From positions 141,785-205,784 of the forward strand of contig OMXS01000002.1 in NCBI GenBank assembly GCA_900315095.1: a stretch of DNA of 64,000 bases. The letters are read 5' to 3'. The notes under the pieces were generated by a model. The model saw nothing but the letters and a program-made list of their open reading frames with translations. It did no database searches and was not told where the DNA came from. Both the position numbers and the translations under genes were made by a program. Origin of the DNA: an uncultured Prevotellaceae bacterium (GTDB lineage Bacteria > Bacteroidota > Bacteroidia > Bacteroidales > Bacteroidaceae). Positions 6,744 through 64,000 of this stretch are shown here, piece by piece; the first letter of the stretch is position 1; every line of letters begins with the position of its first letter.

Positions 6744-6851
6744 ACAAACTCGAATGTTTTTTATTCCGAGTGCAAGTAACTTCGGCATCTATGATGTCAA
6801 AGTTACATCTTTTCTTTCACATTACAATGTTTTTAGCAGAAAAGTTTAGGT

Positions 6852-14708: not shown

Positions 14709-16415
14709 TTAGGCTTTTGCAATCTTCGCCCAGTTGTCTTTCAATCCCACGGTCTTGTTGAACACAATGTGATCGGGCGTGGAGTCGAGGTCGGCCATGA
14801 AGTAACCGATGCGCTGGAACTGCAGGTACTCGCCTGGCTTGCGCTCTGCTGCGAATGGCTCTACATAGCATTCGGTGAGCACATTGAGTGATGTGGGGTT
14901 CAGCAGTTCGCGGAAGTCACGTTCGTCTGCGCTTGGATTCTCCACGTTGAACAAACGGTCATATTGGCGCACCTCTGCTTTCACGCAATGGTCGGCGCTA
15001 ACCCAATGGAGCGTTCCTTTCACCTTGCGGTTGGCTCCCTCCATTCCGCTCTTGCTCTGTGGGTCGTATTCTGCCTGAATCTCTATGATGTTGCCGTCAG
15101 CATCCTTAGTGCAGCCGGTACACATCACGATGTATGCATTCTTCAGACGTACCTCCTTACCTGGTGTCATGCGGAAGAACTTCTTCGGAGCATCCTCCAT
15201 GAAGTCGTCGCGTTCTATCCAAAGGTTGCGGCTGAAGGTAATTGTGTGTGTGCCGTCTGCCTCGTTCTCGGGGTTGTTAACAGCCACCATCTCTTCTGTT
15301 TCGCCTTCGGGATAGTTGGTAATGACAAGTTTAACGGGGTTGACTACTGCGCTCACTCTCAATGCTTTAGCATTAAGGTCTTCGCGAACGGCGGCCTCCA
15401 GCAAAGCCATATCGTTGAGGGCATCGAACTTGGTGTAACCAATGGAGTCGATGAACTTACGGATGCTCTCTGGCGAATAGCCTCGACGGCGCATTCCGCA
15501 CACAGTAGGCATTCGCGGATCGTCCCATCCTGCGACGAGATGTTCATCTACCAGCGCCTTCAGTTTTCGCTTCGACATTACCGTATAGGTAAGGTTGAGA
15601 CGGTTAAACTCTATCTGGCGCGGGCGATAGTCGTGCTGGTTCTCCATCGACTGCAGTTCATCCACGAAGTGATCGTAGAGCGGACGGTGAGGAACAAACT
15701 CGAGAGTACAGATGGAATGGGTAACACCCTCGAAGTAATCGCTTTGTCCATGAGCGAAGTCATACATCGGGTAAGCGTGCCACTTGGTACCTGTACGATG
15801 ATGAGGCGTATGAATTATGCGGTAGATAATAGGGTCGCGGAAGTGCATGTTGGGGTTGCTCATATCGAGTTTTGCCCTCAACACCATAGAGCCCTCTACT
15901 GCTTCAGGGGTGTTCATCATGCGGAACAGGCGCAGGTTTTCTTCTATTGGACGGTCGCGATAGGGTGAGGGAGTGCCCGGTTGTGTGGGAGTTCCCTTCT
16001 GCTCTGCTATCTGTTCGCTTGTCTGTTCATCAACATACGCCTTGCCTTGCTCTATCATCCATATTGCAAAGTCCCACAGTTTCTCGAAGTAATCGGAGGC
16101 ATAATAGACATTGCCCCACTTGAATCCGAGCCACTTGATGTCCTGGAGTATAGAGTCAACGTATTCTGTATCTTCTTTTGAAGGGTTGGTATCGTCGAAT
16201 CGGAGGTTGCAAACGCCATTATAGTTCTCTGCCACTCCGAAGTCCATGCAGATTGCTTTCGCATGCCCGATGTGCAGATATCCGTTAGGCTCTGGCGGGA
16301 AGCGAGTCTGTATTCTGCCTCCGTTCTTGCCTTCGGCGAGGTCTTGTTCCACCATTTGTTCTACGAAACTAAGGCTCTTTTTCTCTTCGTTAGAGTTCTC
16401 TTGTAGCGTTGTCAT
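14709..16415 (-). CDS. glnS: Glutamine--tRNA ligase
   Basis: The 568-residue class I aminoacyl-tRNA synthetase charges tRNA-Gln. The HIGH-type motif lies in PPEPNGYLHIGHAKAI (about 41-56) and the KMSKS-type motif in TVMSKRKL (about 270). The C-terminal anticodon-binding beta-barrels run to the end. Length matches bacterial GlnRS. A TAACTTTG box (minus strand, 16473-16480) lies about 60 bp upstream and is the probable promoter element. The downstream TPR and DedA genes may share the transcript. Confidence 0.96.
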   Translation of the reverse strand: MTTLQENSNEEKKSLSFVEQMVEQDLAEGKNGGRIQTRFPPEPNGYLHIGHAKAICMDFGVAENYNGVCNLRFDDTNPSKEDTEYVDSILQDIKWLGFKWGNVYYASDYFEKLWDFAIWMIEQGKAYVDEQTSEQIAEQKGTPTQPGTPSPYRDRPIEENLRLFRMMNTPEAVEGSMVLRAKLDMSNPNMHFRDPIIYRIIHTPHHRTGTKWHAYPMYDFAHGQSDYFEGVTHSICTLEFVPHRPLYDHFVDELQSMENQHDYRPRQIEFNRLNLTYTVMSKRKLKALVDEHLVAGWDDPRMPTVCGMRRRGYSPESIRKFIDSIGYTKFDALNDMALLEAAVREDLNAKALRVSAVVNPVKLVITNYPEGETEEMVAVNNPENEADGTHTITFSRNLWIERDDFMEDAPKKFFRMTPGKEVRLKNAYIVMCTGCTKDADGNIIEIQAEYDPQSKSGMEGANRKVKGTLHWVSADHCVKAEVRQYDRLFNVENPSADERDFRELLNPTSLNVLTECYVEPFAAERKPGEYLQFQRIGYFMADLDSTPDHIVFNKTVGLKDNWAKIAKA

Positions 16416-28320: not shown

Positions 28321-28429
28321 AATTGCTTTTCTTTACCTGTGAAATCCTAATTCGCCTGCAAAATTACTGAAAGAGTAGCGCAACTGGGTTGCAAAGTAAT
28401 ATTTGCTGATTCTAAATCAGTCGAATACA

Positions 28430-28900
28430 TAGTATTTGTAATCAAAATACAAGAATTTCACATAGGTTAAATTGGCGGAAAGTGCAGGGATTTACATCGG
28501 AATAAGCGTCTCAAGCATGTCTTTTGAGGCCTTTTAGGGAAGAAAAATGCAGCTATTTGTGACCTTAGAAGACTTAGGTGTTACCACAAATAATGTTGTA
28601 ATGTGTTGATTTACAATGTTTTGCATCATTACTTATTGTTTCTAAGCGTCTCCGTCTCAGCGTCTCAGTTGTTTTTTAAGGTACCCCTTAACTCGTCTCC
28701 TATACTATTTATATTATATATATTATATATATTATTGATTATCAATAAGTTATAAGTATTATAACAAGAGACTATGATGTAGAATGTACCTTTTTTTTAA
28801 TTGAGACGCTGAGACGCTGAGACGGTCGGTTGTTTACTCGCTTTCCTCTACTAGGCCATCAAGTGTCTAGAGAAGTTCGTTGCTCACGGATGGCGTGTCG
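28430..28900 (-). pseudogene. Relic of the gene X / inverted-repeat / DUF3987 module
   Basis: This 626-bp gap holds a decayed copy of the module at 63.4-63.9 kb. At 28437-28512 the sequence matches the start of the DUF3987 gene (63412-63486), but the start codon is followed directly by TAA. At 28843-28890 it matches the end of gene X (VSNELL, then a stop codon where the intact copy has W). Between them is an AT-rich core with inverted arms, as in the intact copy. A 130-nt segment (28513-28642) flanked by the 10-bp direct repeat TAAGCGTCTC interrupts it. The direct repeat could be a target-site duplication, or simply part of the arm repeats. Confidence 0.75.
28643..28825. repeat. Inverted short-repeat arms around an AT-rich core, copy B
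   Basis: The left arm 28652-28667 is the exact complement of 28810-28825. Arms are built of 7-8-base units, GTCTCAGC on the left and TGAGACGC repeated three times on the right. Inside, GTTGTTTTTTAAGG and TTTTTTTTAATTG flank a core rich in TATATAT. Copy A at 63.5 kb has the same inner flanks but different arm units. Confidence 0.85.
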
Positions 28901-60120: not shown

Positions 60121-60534
60121 CTATACAACTGACAAAAGTTCGCGTCCTATTTTATGAATCCCCTCCACGATGCGCTGGCGCTGCTGCGGACGTGGTTTCT
60201 TCAGTCCGTTTGCATAATGCGAGAGCAGATGCTGATTAATGCCTGAGGCACGACTGATGGCAGCGAGCGAGACATAAGGCTCGTAGGCACGAAGCATCGT
60301 TGTCACGTCTTTTAGGCAATATTCAAACTCATATTCGCCATCTACTAACCATTGCGGCAATTCGTCTCCATCTTCAAGCATTCCTTCGACATGGAAACGA
60401 AGAGTCTCTGGAATATCCCGAAGGAGTTCCTCGTATGTCTTTGCAGTCAACACAACAGCACCTGGCACATTTTCACCAAAGGTTGCTCCAAAATTCTTGT
60501 TGCACCATGCAACCTCCACTCTAATCTTTTCCAT
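60121..60534 (-). CDS. HicB-like antitoxin or regulator with C-terminal HTH
   Basis: The start at 60534 (ATG, with GAGGAGAAAT upstream) gives 137 residues. The N-terminal half (VEVAWCNKNFGATF and GAVVLTAKTYEELLRDIP) is HicB-like. The C-terminal helix-turn-helix (AISRASGINQHLLSHYANGLK) would bind DNA. HicB normally pairs with a small HicA toxin upstream, but none is recognisable there, and a TACCTTTG element (60574-60581) sits directly in front. It may be a solitary regulator or a remnant of a toxin-antitoxin pair. Confidence 0.7.
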   Translation of the reverse strand: MEKIRVEVAWCNKNFGATFGENVPGAVVLTAKTYEELLRDIPETLRFHVEGMLEDGDELPQWLVDGEYEFEYCLKDVTTMLRAYEPYVSLAAISRASGINQHLLSHYANGLKKPRPQQRQRIVEGIHKIGRELLSVV

Positions 60535-61283
60535 CTTATTTCTCCTCAATTGTAATTAAATAGTTTGACTGTGCAAAGGTAATAAAAATGATACTATTCT
60601 ACAAGTAAAACGACAACAAAGTATTATTATTAATACTAATTAACTGCATGAAGTGAGAACACTTTCTGACGAAAAACGTCGAGGAAGGAAAAAACAACTT
60701 GCCAGTCCGTTGCCAGACTAAAAGCAAAATGGGTATATTGGATTGGGGAGGATTTAAACCATTATTATGCTGCCTAAAAAGGATGTCGTACTCAAGAAAA
60801 GAATCAGATAATCGCTCCAATGTTGGGTTAGATATTCCTCCTTATGGGCGGCGAAAACCTGATTCTGAGTGCAAAGATAAACAAATTAATCTATAGTATG
60901 CAATCTTCAGCGGGATTTAACATAATATTGTCAGAAAACATTCCTGAGGCGGTCAGGAGACACTCCCAAGACGGTCAGAAAGCACATGTGAAGATTCCGC
61001 CCCTTAGTCGCTCGGCTCTGCCGCTTTTATAGCGAAGCGGAGAAAGAACTGGGGAGGCCAGGAGGGGATACAATTCATAATTCATAATTCATAATGCATA
61101 ATTCATAATAGCCCGCTCGACCTGTAGGGGCGTTCCCCCGTGTGCGCCCGTCTCGAAGAGTGTTGCAGATAATAAACAAAAACACCCCTCCCAAAGGAAG
61201 AGGCATTTTGTGATTTCAACCTCCCCTATGGGGGGAGGTATGGTGGGGGCTTTGAGAGACTTTTGGAAAGGTGGAAGGTGGAA
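60535..61283. repeat. Gene-free stretch with interspersed repeats
   Basis: About 750 bp without a convincing gene. There are two TAnnTTTG boxes on the minus strand (60574-60581 and about 60873-60880). A stretch around 60980-61060 has GC-rich elements. 61072-61109 is a run of AATTCATAAT units. 61125-61180 and 61185-61260 hold further GC-rich repeats. A plus-strand frame at 60699-60896 looks like chance. Confidence 0.6.
61072..61109. repeat. AATTCATAAT tandem repeat, left side of primase gene
   Basis: Four to five units of AATTCATAAT lie about 175 bp past the 3' end of the primase gene. An inverted version (62269-62290) covers its start codon, so the gene is bracketed by inverted repeats. Confidence 0.75.
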
Positions 61284-62270
61284 TTACGAAGGTTGGGAAC
61301 TCCCCCCCTCGCCCTTTGGAGAGGGGTCGGGGGTGAGGCTCCCATAGTACTCCCCAAAGTCCTTGTAGCCCTCGGGCAGTTGATGATGCACCAGCGAGGG
61401 AAGGACCTGCTGCAGCTGTAGGAAGAGGCGCTCGCCAGGCGCGTCACGGTCGGGATACATGTGGAAGGAAAACGATAACGATAACGATGACGATAACGAT
61501 AACGATGACAGCAGTTCCTTATCCTTTTTCGTGAGCAGCGTGGCGGAGGGGATGGCGATGGCCTTGTGACCGGCAGAGAGCATGGCCCAGCAGTCGGAGC
61601 AGCCCTCTGTTATCCACAGCTCGTCGCCCGGGCGCAGCAGGTTAAGCACAGGCAGGTTGTAAATGCCACATTCCGAGCCTTGTGGGAAGCGGAAGCGAGG
61701 TGGTTTGGTCGTTTGGGAGATTGGTGGTTTGGTCGTTTGAGGCTGGCTGCTCCAACTGAGGTTACGGTTCTGAACGCCCACCAGACGGCCCTCACGGTCG
61801 TAATAAGGAATCTGCAGCCACGGCACCTCCCTCTTGTCCTTCCACGAGGTCAGACGGCACCAGCGCACCACACGAGGGTCAATCCGACGCTCATCATACA
61901 GGAACCGCCGTGCCTCAGGCAGAAGCCAAGGGCGTTCAAAAAACCTTTCATAACGGGAAGCATCAAACGGCTTCGGCTCCGTTTCCTTTGGCCTGTACTC
62001 CGTCAGAATGATGTTGCTCTCGTCTGCCAGCCAATGGCAAGCCTCGGTGAATGTCTTATTCAAAAAACGCATCACCAGGTCTATCACATCCCCATGAGCA
62101 TCGCATACGAAACACCTGTAATGATTCCTCCTTCCCAGCGCCATCGACGGATGATGGTCATCGTGAAATGGGCACAAGCACATCCGGCGGCTGTTCACCC
62201 GTAGCCCAAGTCGCTCCGCGACCCCTACGATAGAGAGGTCGCGCAGCTTTTGAATCTCATATTTTTCCAT
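61284..62270 (-). CDS. CHC2 zinc finger / toprim primase-like protein
   Basis: The 328-residue protein has a DnaG-type zinc finger (CPFHDDHHPSM and YRCFVCDAHGDVIDL), a core around 100-170, and a toprim-like domain with LWITEGCSDCWAMLSAG and HMYPDRDAPG. Such primases belong to mobile elements and phages. It shows three repeat-derived oddities: a 24-bp in-frame duplication (61699-61739) encoding TTKPP twice, an S-L-S hexanucleotide repeat (61471-61509), and a tail LTPDPSPKGEGG from a GC-rich interspersed repeat (61301-61338). It is 16 bp after the DUF3987 gene. Confidence 0.83.
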   Translation of the reverse strand: MEKYEIQKLRDLSIVGVAERLGLRVNSRRMCLCPFHDDHHPSMALGRRNHYRCFVCDAHGDVIDLVMRFLNKTFTEACHWLADESNIILTEYRPKETEPKPFDASRYERFFERPWLLPEARRFLYDERRIDPRVVRWCRLTSWKDKREVPWLQIPYYDREGRLVGVQNRNLSWSSQPQTTKPPISQTTKPPRFRFPQGSECGIYNLPVLNLLRPGDELWITEGCSDCWAMLSAGHKAIAIPSATLLTKKDKELLSSLSLSSSLSLSFSFHMYPDRDAPGERLFLQLQQVLPSLVHHQLPEGYKDFGEYYGSLTPDPSPKGEGGSSQPS

Positions 62271-62290
62271 AATTATGAATTATGAATTAC
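62269..62290. repeat. AATTATGAATTATG repeat spanning a stop and a start codon
   Basis: This repeat, the reverse complement of the unit at 61072-61109, covers both the stop codon of the DUF3987 gene and the start region of the primase gene. Confidence 0.7.
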
Positions 62291-63471
62291 GCATTCCCCA
62301 GGAACTGAGCCGTTTTTGAATACAGTCCCGTTTCTGCAGAGTAGGTGATGAACCCTCGTTGCACCCATTTGTAGAGCTGATTCTTCGTTCCCTCAGCGCT
62401 CTTGCCTAGACTGGTGCGTAGTGCCTCCAATTGTGCCTCGTTGAAGGTGTCAGGCAAGTCTTCGAGCATGTTTTTCGGCCCTGCTTTTCTTGTCTCATCG
62501 GTCAGAGCGTCGCCACCCTTGAACATGTCGCCAAACACTTTTACCTTCGACCACAGGTCGTAATAGCAAAACCAAATCATGAACTCTCCGATGGAGCGAC
62601 TCCATTTCTGGTCGTTCAATATCCATAGTGTAGCGGCTTTCTTCCATGCAGCGAAGATGCTGCGGTGTGACAGTTCGAAGAGCGTGTCGTCGTCGGCAAG
62701 GTCGGCCAGACGGGCCATCTCCTCTGCCAGTTGGTCGGCAACCTTGTTCAACGGCTTCACCACGAAAGTGCCCTTGCAGTTGTCCAAGCGCAAGATGTAT
62801 TTGTCGAGTTTTTTCAGGAACTCCTCGTCGTACTGTCCTTGGCGAGGTATTTTTCCGCTGCGCTCACCGCGTGCCTTGTAGACGAAAGGAATACGGCCGA
62901 AGAACCCGTTAGTCATGTCCTTCTTATAGAACGTGCGTGCTGCGTCGGGAGTAGAACTGAACGTGATGTTCACTCGTAGTATCGGGTTGCCCGTCACGCC
63001 GTCTGCCGTTGCCCTTAACGCACCCGCCCTTTGGCAGTCATAAATGTTGCGGATGGTCTGGCTCACCTGTCGGTGACCTCCGCACATGCGGTCGGCCATC
63101 TCTATCTCGGGCAGGTTCAAGTACTGCGTGCGGCCTCCCTTTTTCTCTAGCGCCATAGCGTTCTGAATGAATGCCGGGTTAGTCAGGTCGGCAGGCGGGA
63201 ACCAGAATGTCACGTCAGGACGTTCGGGCTTCTCCTTGTTCGCCCCTTTGGTTTTCACCTGGCGCTGCCAGTCCACCAGTTTCTCGTATTCCATCTCGTC
63301 ATGAACACGGAACGGTCTCATTATTGCCTCTATAAGATGAGACAACTGTGCTTTTCCTACACCCGAAGGACCTATCAAGTGACCCATTTGGCCGCACAAT
63401 TCATAGTATTTGTTATCAGAATACAAGAATTTAACATTAGTTAAATGGGCGGCAAGTGCAGGAATTGCCAT
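62287..63471 (-). CDS. DUF3987-like protein (C-terminal part)
   Basis: The 394-residue protein starts MAIPALAAHLTNVKF, followed by GQMGHLIGPSGVGKAQLSHL (about 31-50), a Walker-A-like loop. It continues with FWFPPADLTNPAF and later SRSIGEFMIWFCYYDLW. This matches the ATPase/helicase-like part of DUF3987/VirE-type proteins of Bacteroidetes elements. Those relatives often carry a longer N-terminal primase or VirE-N region, so this gene starts late compared with them. An in-frame stop lies upstream inside the inverted-repeat region. The decayed copy at 28.4 kb begins at the same point, suggesting the short form is its normal state. Confidence 0.75.
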   Translation of the reverse strand: MAIPALAAHLTNVKFLYSDNKYYELCGQMGHLIGPSGVGKAQLSHLIEAIMRPFRVHDEMEYEKLVDWQRQVKTKGANKEKPERPDVTFWFPPADLTNPAFIQNAMALEKKGGRTQYLNLPEIEMADRMCGGHRQVSQTIRNIYDCQRAGALRATADGVTGNPILRVNITFSSTPDAARTFYKKDMTNGFFGRIPFVYKARGERSGKIPRQGQYDEEFLKKLDKYILRLDNCKGTFVVKPLNKVADQLAEEMARLADLADDDTLFELSHRSIFAAWKKAATLWILNDQKWSRSIGEFMIWFCYYDLWSKVKVFGDMFKGGDALTDETRKAGPKNMLEDLPDTFNEAQLEALRTSLGKSAEGTKNQLYKWVQRGFITYSAETGLYSKTAQFLGNA

Positions 63472-63487
63472 CGGAACAAGCGGTTCT

Positions 63488-63630
63488 TGACAGCTGACAG
63501 TTCTGACAGTTGTTTTTTAAGGGTATTGCCTCCCTTGTATTTATATATAACTATCTATATATCAATTAGTTATATAATCTTTAGAAGGGGGTTATGTCTT
63601 TTTTTTTAATTGTCAGACTGTCAGCTGTCA
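63488..63630. repeat. Inverted short-repeat arms around an AT-rich core, copy A
   Basis: 63488-63508 and 63611-63630 are complementary over 20 bp with one bulged base. Arms are built of CTGACAG-type units. The 102-bp core is AT-rich with TATATAT tracts and is flanked by GTTGTTTTTTAAGG and TTTTTTTTTAATTG. It lies between gene X and the DUF3987 gene. Confidence 0.85.
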
Positions 63631-63644
63631 GATTAATCCCTAGG

Positions 63645-64000
63645 TTATATTTCCTCTACCAGGCCATCGAGTGCCCAGAGAAGTTCGTTGCTCACGGCCA
63701 TAGCGTAGCGCACCACGTCGAAGCCCTTTCCTGTCTTTATAGGCTTGAAGTTAGGGCGCAGCGAGCCGTCGTCGCGGCGCGTCACGGTGATATACTCCCC
63801 GTTGAACACGCGCGGGTTGCGCTTCTCGGGAACAGCCGGCTGCGTCTCCACGAAGGTGTAGTGAGCGTCCTTGCAGATGAACTCGTCCACGATGCTGTCG
63901 TTGTCGCGGCGCAGCACGCCCTGGTACTCCTTGCCCGTCTGCATGCTCGTGTCGCTACTGAGAATAGTCTTGAGGTCACAGCCCAAGTCTGTGTTGCGGT
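63645..64000 (-). CDS. Gene X, unrecognised protein, 5' end outside window
   Basis: The frame is open from the right window edge to a stop codon at 63645, giving at least 118 residues. It contains EYQGVLRRDNDSIVDEF, NPRVFNGEYITVTRRDDG and ends VSNELLWALDGLVEEI. It has no signal peptide or membrane segment in the visible part and I do not recognise a family. A decayed copy of its last residues occurs at 28.84-28.89 kb next to the other inverted-repeat element, so it belongs to the same module as the DUF3987 gene. Confidence 0.7.
   Translation of the reverse strand, partial: RNTDLGCDLKTILSSDTSMQTGKEYQGVLRRDNDSIVDEFICKDAHYTFVETQPAVPEKRNPRVFNGEYITVTRRDDGSLRPNFKPIKTGKGFDVVRYAMAVSNELLWALDGLVEEI

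Follow-up and report, generated by a model that had tools for sequence, protein, structure and literature searches.

The subject of this analysis is a two-armed DNA element that occurs twice, as copies A and B, in a 64-kb window (the whole stretch of 64,000 nucleotides that was analysed) from an uncultured Prevotellaceae bacterium. In each copy an AT-rich core is enclosed by arms built from short repeated units, with the units of one arm inverted in the other. A first-pass annotation made from the letters alone had described such cores, with shared inner flanks, at both places, and our own inspection bears this out. Copy A is accompanied by gene X, by the gene for a protein that we call D, and by a primase gene; copy B is bordered by gene remnants.

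61284..62270, minus strand: DnaG-type primase, with CHC2 zinc finger and Toprim motifs
62287..63471, minus strand: protein D, predicted MCM-type AAA+ fold and winged helix (from the model of a relative, L096); start shortened compared with relatives
62359..62397, minus strand: predicted recognition helix of D (equivalent to L096 residues 399-411), with Tyr, Lys and Gln at the equivalents of 407, 408 and 411
63487..63509, plus strand: copy A left arm, made of CTGACA-word units
63510..63609, no strand: copy A AT-rich core and inner flanks, from the sequence
63610..63634, minus strand: copy A right arm, three CTGACA-word units, inverted
63645..63998, minus strand: gene X, 3' part; the contig stops at the window end, and relatives adjoin the arms at other loci
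28424..28508, minus strand: 85-bp remnant of a D gene (its 5' part) next to copy B, 85.9% to 63398-63482
28646..28668, plus strand: copy B left arm, three GTCTCA-word units, one of them GTCTCC
28669..28801, no strand: copy B AT-rich core and inner flanks, from the sequence and the core statistics of the family
28802..28825, minus strand: copy B right arm, three GTCTCA-word units, inverted
28842..28889, minus strand: remnant of a gene X 3' end beside copy B, 48 bp, 91.7% to 63650-63697

The annotation had placed both copies between gene X and a DUF3987 gene. For copy A this position holds, but copy B stands between the 85-bp and 48-bp gene remnants, with a methyltransferase gene on one side and a LuxR-type gene on the other; in the interpretation developed below, it is an orphan origin remnant of a deleted element. 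The only other nearly full-length D match in this genome is a distant 755-amino-acid protein (23% identity), leaving copy B with no recognised partner, and because D fragments sit at contig ends an intact D copy could have been missed. Read from its first ATG, the D of the window is about 40 N-terminal residues short and its frame is open for only about 15 codons further, so element A (copy A with the shortened D) may be decaying. We also scanned the whole window with a strict rule (a 6-mer with three copies in one arm and three inverted copies in the opposite one, the arms 60-190 bp apart), and the sole match was copy B (CGTCTC, 28647-28824), with none in five block-shuffled windows; copy A, having three and two exact units, fails this rule. 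As the rule caught the arms at 11 of 20 relatives' loci and returned one unrelated match (L104), it is strict, yet chance matches are possible. Downstream of the primase, a small gene at 60121-60549 has weak similarity to HicB-like antitoxins.

The element is far more numerous than the two copies first counted. DNA around copy A has 29 matches in this genome, of which 19, A and B included, are two-armed and carry many different words; the majority of the 19, copy B among them, are remnants made of a 5' piece of D, the arms and core, and a 3' piece of gene X. Where the module is intact, its order is gene X (about 130 amino acids), arms and core, D (about 435 amino acids) and a CHC2/Toprim primase (about 310 amino acids), and we collected about 90 different loci of this intact kind from Prevotella and its relatives. 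A first query found relatives of D in 82 of the 151 genus genomes, and another in 187 of 399 genomes of the genus and 123 of 400 of the family (16 of 30 genera); all three genome counts take in longer, more distant proteins. The best 80 of 244 relatives, retained from a scan of named genomes, came from Prevotella and other Bacteroidales, frequently from ruminant sources and including Xylanibacter ruminicola; gene X was unrecognised at 21 of 81 loci (these 80 and L194), some of which are incomplete. A motif search recovered the zinc and Toprim motifs in 86 to 93 of 99 primases. Gene X matched no Pfam family, and its fold model was too weak to use (predicted local distance difference test score, pLDDT, 66; predicted template modelling score, pTM, 0.37).

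When modules from one genome were compared (12 pairs), they were alike internally and their surroundings differed. Together with the scattered remnants, this points indirectly to movement of the module. At 19 relatives' loci no convincing terminal inverted repeats surrounded the intact modules; the one strong pair, a perfect 19-bp inverted repeat in L096 with its halves at 6815-6833 and 15333-15351, is located well away from the module. An HU-HIG DNA-binding gene (L096:6931-7362) is found downstream of the same module, and by eye a similar gene follows the module of L094.

Each arm usually consists of three copies of a locus-specific word of the form xNNNCA, and the opposite arm of the same word inverted. 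Word calls were obtained at 115 loci, made up of the 19 copies in this genome and 96 loci whose sequence reaches far enough upstream of D, and at 107 of the 115 each arm holds at least two exact units beside the AT-rich region, as in iteron origins; the other eight calls are weak, one arm having fewer than two exact units. The words of L137, L103 and L109 were assigned by hand, the correction of L137 reducing 24 words to 23. Examples are CTTCCA at L094 and GTTCCA at L095, both from one genome, GTCTCA at L097 and GTTTCA at L099. We then called the arms independently of each other, in windows set by distance to the D start codon. Both arms were callable at 81 of 88 loci and their words agreed at 76 of these 81. 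In 2000 trials with shuffled arm pairing the agreements averaged 11.8 and never exceeded 22, and pairing an arm with the other arm of its nearest relative gave 37. The annotation had proposed looking for such covariation of the arms, around a conserved AT-rich core, at further loci. In units that differ from the locus word by at most one letter (CA required), letter 1 deviates in 6.5% and letters 2-4 in less than 1%.

The spacings of the units are equal between the two arms at 35 of 72 loci (13.4 expected if independent); the word is conserved, and the pairing register is often lost. Cores measure about 105 bp (71-145) with 75% A+T, and 56 of 108 contain a central palindrome of the type ATAACT-N-AGTTA, compared with 1.6 in shuffles, for which the control pattern was slightly narrower. 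Three loci (L169, L184 and L188) have mixed words, GTTACA in one arm and both GTGACA and GTTACA in the other, and were perhaps caught mid-change. Locus pairs from the same genome had equal words in 3 of 26 cases (none of the first 11 pairs, three of the 15 added later). An avoidance of equal words within one genome, hinted at by the first 11 pairs, was dropped on this result, and with 3 of 26 pairs sharing a word we claim no incompatibility groups. One of the 26 is the pair L126/L162, described below.

Protein D of the relative L096 was modelled with AlphaFold (pLDDT 84, pTM 0.85), and the predicted structure has the AAA+ fold of the MCM family and ends in a winged helix at the C terminus. Residues 399-411 form the second helix of this domain, its recognition helix, and judged from their spacing residues 404, 407, 408 and 411 share the same face of it. 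Lys80 and Glu162 are invariant in 96 D proteins. The name DUF3987 that the annotation gave to this neighbour fits weakly: the window protein has no Pfam match, and hence none to DUF3987 (PF13148), and 2 of 18 relatives match that model, the best at E 0.012. A profile search of PDB sequences returned one match, which was irrelevant. The same genomes encode long D relatives of 750-860 amino acids, and two of the six tested are DUF3987 proteins with a BT4734-like_N domain. With the strict scan, a two-armed origin was found at one of ten long-form DUF3987-like loci (L340). By eye, word-like repeats occur in the 420 bp that precede the long DUF3987-like open reading frame at L339, L340, L342, L343 and L344, those of L340 forming two facing sets, GAAGTT and AACTTC; these too are perhaps cognate iterons.

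The word of a locus follows its D protein. Word sharing rises with D identity, from 2% of pairs at 50-60% identity to 46% at 80-90% and 89% above 90%; against gene X identity it varies between 14 and 44% without a clear trend, and against primase identity it never exceeds 27%. To locate the signal, we asked column by column, within identity bins, whether equal residues accompany equal words, numbering residues as in L096. The 96 loci were reduced to 89 by removing L140, L169, L184 and L188 (mixed or doubtful arms) and three identical D proteins; L145 had stood outside the set from the start, with too little upstream DNA. The two highest-ranking columns in D were 408 (z 27.2) and 407 (25.1), followed by 413 (15.5), 279 (15.3) and 411 (11.6), while the best columns elsewhere reached z 9.9 in gene X and 8.4 in the primase.

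Numbering the letters of the word N1-T-N3-N4-C-A, we found that individual residues go with individual letters. Arg407 accompanies G at N1 in 47 of 50 cases, Tyr407 C in 18 of 19, and Asn, Ser or Ala407 A in 13 of 18. At N4, Lys408 goes with C (43 of 46), Gln with A (16 of 16), Val with T (14 of 17) and Asn or Leu with T (7 of 7); at N3, Phe411 goes with T (46 of 47) and Asn411 with C (6 of 10). Arg with G, Lys opposite C, Gln with A and Val with T are familiar protein-DNA contacts. Outside these simple rules, Lys408 combined with Ser or Gln411 accompanies GA (CTGACA). In the window, D carries Tyr-Lys at the equivalents of 407 and 408 and the arms read CTGACA, a combination shared by L135 and L183; L174 has Tyr-Gln. 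A pair of contigs from one metagenome assembly, L126 and L162, is identical over its first and last 141 bases and different in content, and we take the two for alleles of one locus. Compared block by block, the stretch that runs from the gene X end to the far side of D is 61-83% alike between them, and the primase is in part more similar. L126 combines ATTCCA with Asn-Lys and L162 GTTCCA with Arg-Lys, so that words and helix residues have both changed, and origin and reader would differ together.

The predictive value of this code was assessed in three ways. Leaving out one locus at a time, three residues gave the right word for 62 of 89 loci, a score for which the columns had been picked on the same data; the nearest D gave 41, and 200 random column triplets at most 45. 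Holding out whole clades, with columns chosen on the training clades, gave 53 of 89 compared with 14 of 89 by nearest D. Columns 408 and 407 ranked as the top two in all five folds, the third being 404, 279, 279, 279 and 413. Outside the training set there were 35 new D proteins, 25 of them scoreable, and the code gave the correct word in 18 of these 25 cases, compared with 11 of 25 by nearest D; the per-letter scores for N1, N3 and N4 were 0.92, 0.84 and 0.88, compared with 0.64, 0.76 and 0.60. Six of the 25 had been seen before the table was built (L066, L078, L082, L084, L087 and L089; five right), and 13 of the other 19 were right. Right words were obtained for L268, L275 and L293 from residue triplets unseen in training, and for L078 and L272, whose triplet had been seen once with a different word, the letter tables were still correct. 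The window's own D, predicted CT?CCA and observed CTGACA, was scored as a miss. Among the ten unscored proteins, L241, L242 and L295 resemble misses, L090 and L243 resemble hits, L276 is mixed, and four have a cut D or unreadable arms. The architecture, the family, the predicted fold of D and the residue-letter coupling with its out-of-sample test were all computed here.

Since the word tracks residues of the recognition helix and the prediction holds out of sample, it is very probable that the arms are iterons to which D binds. Our preferred explanation, which we regard as likely, is that the winged helix of D binds the arms as iterons, and that a small mobile replicon, made up of gene X, the origin, D and the DnaG-type primase, has its replication origin in the arms together with the AT-rich core. 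The options offered by the annotation included an iteron-type origin for an element that encodes its own primase, and this is the one best supported by the agreement of the arm words and the tracking of the D helix. From these calculations we infer D binding, two facing assemblies, core opening and replication, in the following manner. D subunits would bind the three direct units on one side and the three inverted units on the other through their winged helices, so that two assemblies face each other, head to head, across the core and help it to open. The element's primase, and probably host replication proteins too, would then be recruited and replication would start. Should the recognition helix of D change, all units would change along with it. 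The coordinated change of the arms noted by the annotation is real, and is explained by one protein reading all the units and not by pairing between the arms.

Several observations weigh against this explanation. The Ser/Thr of Walker A (GxxxxGK[ST]) is present in none of 96 D proteins and the Asp of Walker B is replaced by Pro in 91 of 96; with both usual Mg-binding residues lost, D may not unwind DNA. The strong column 279 (z 15.3) falls outside the winged helix, and because sequence pairs share ancestry its z value, like the others, ranks columns and gives no probability. The code has exceptions at L116, L254, L264, L273, L274 and L336. Searching plasmids and phages with D returned no match, and viral contigs one. 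Circular forms of the module, which the annotation had suggested looking for, or other extrachromosomal forms were not seen among 11 short loci, none of which has a terminal overlap. The putative origin lies upstream of its initiator, unlike the downstream position in staphylococcal pathogenicity islands (SaPIs). The proposed binding and replication are deductions from calculation, and units so near the start of D could also regulate the operon.

This last point leads to the rival that survives best, in which the arms are only an operator, with the promoter in the core, through which D represses its own operon, and no replication starts there. Iteron initiators often autoregulate, the D-side arm usually ends about 34 bp upstream of the D start codon, and the coupling between D residues and word would fit an operator equally well. 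An origin is the better fit to facing sets of units around a symmetric AT-rich core and to an operon that includes a primase gene, and a Bacteroidetes-type promoter pattern (one simple pattern) was unmatched in the 230 bases before D at the loci tested. We consider a purely regulatory role improbable, although an operator role may coexist with that of an origin.

The scattered remnants could also suggest that a transposase binds the arms and moves the element together with miniature copies. Inverted repeats of the ATATACTATTNGNCC type border some of the remnants, and the motif occurs 43 times in this genome compared with once for a reversed control; it lies at both ends of 2 of 19 stretches examined (L022 and L035). 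In a test for miniature inverted-repeat transposable elements (MITEs), these two stretches had no clear target duplication, and armless relatives had apparent duplications of 8 bp (L225) and 11 bp (L029). The arms are internal and not terminal, however, the same end repeats bound elements without arms, and none were found around the relatives' intact modules, where one of 19 loci (L096) has the distant 19-bp pair mentioned above. D itself has a predicted MCM fold, and we know of no transposase with such a fold. Transposon sites are accordingly a very unlikely function of the arms. As observations in their own right, the ATATACTATTNGNCC repeats define a MITE-like family (for example L225:3938-4060 and L022:4092-4783) of which L022 and L035 enclose an arms-and-core remnant, and at the end of contig C37 (L226:3822-4085) a tandem unit of several tens of bases lies between an inverted-repeat end and a D fragment. 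The remnant family accounts for part of the intergenic repeats in these genomes.

Neutral concerted change, with slippage homogenising the units and template switching copying one arm to the other without any selected function, would account for units that are identical within a locus and for the mixed loci L169, L184 and L188. It gives no reason why the word should follow D residues 407, 408 and 411, leaves unexplained why arm spacings differ while the words agree, and is contradicted by the out-of-sample prediction; we give it hardly any credence. The annotation's option of a DNA or RNA hairpin, or a transfer origin with the arms as its stem, draws on inverted arms that change together and is just as implausible, since the words are constant but the spacings that a full-length hairpin would need agree in only 35 of 72 loci, and no relaxase gene was spotted by eye among the open reading frames of L094, L096 and L098, with no systematic search made. 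Nothing that was observed suggests a transfer site.

More broadly, these loci could represent widespread chromosomal replicons of Bacteroidales, in which an MCM-fold initiator without canonical Mg-binding residues reads its origin by a nearly modular winged-helix code, a generalisation that we put forward tentatively and hold at somewhat less than even. If it is true, a few helix residues would each set one base, and origin and reader could shift specificity together by few substitutions; orphan origins of deleted elements could serve a fitting D in trans; and the rule may hold throughout the DUF3987 family, where some long members carry word-like repeats upstream. Under our preferred explanation, one branch of the common DUF3987-like genes would gain a concrete job and a DNA target readable from the genome. 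With 89 D proteins and about 23 words, the set is an unusually clean natural case of a protein and its DNA site changing together, and natural pairs (L094/L095 and L126/L162) bear on base reading by winged helices and on how replicon specificity may change without loss of the origin. What appears to be new is the code that links reader and word, together with how large the family is: the literature matches listed, whose coverage leaves subscription journals mostly outside, included no paper on this origin family or code.

Among known systems, begomovirus Rep offers a parallel for the code, its initiator residues and lineage-specific short iterons varying together. This resembles D, but Rep is an unrelated rolling-circle initiator with no MCM fold, primase gene or facing arms. 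The short D is also a relative of the long DUF3987-like proteins. It is without their N-terminal domain and adjoins a two-armed origin, which the strict scan did not find at nine of ten long-form loci. DUF3987 proteins were earlier predicted to be helicases that belong to mobile elements (PMC5862659).

The iterons of SaPIs, reportedly, flank an AT-rich stretch and are specific for their Rep (Ubeda 2007, 2012). There the origin lies directly downstream of the initiator gene, whereas here it is upstream of D; the initiator here resembles MCM and DUF3987 proteins and its ATPase motifs are altered, the units on the two sides of the core are strict inversions of each other, and no integrase was noticed by eye among the open reading frames of L094, L096 and L098. 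In the staphylococcal cassette chromosome mec (SCCmec), Cch2 is an active helicase that requires the Walker A Lys, whereas D lacks the usual Mg-binding residues, and the primase CCPol-MP is an A-family polymerase pair, whereas the primase here is of the DnaG type. According to PMC7581432, SaPI Rep binds several short iterons through its C-terminal domain and has a primase in the same element, an arrangement of initiator, iterons and element primase like that proposed here; Cch2 is an MCM-like initiator with an element-coded primase, and its C-terminal domain binds a few 5-nt iterons. Both proteins are thought to act in a manner similar to the mechanism that we propose for D (PMC7581432).
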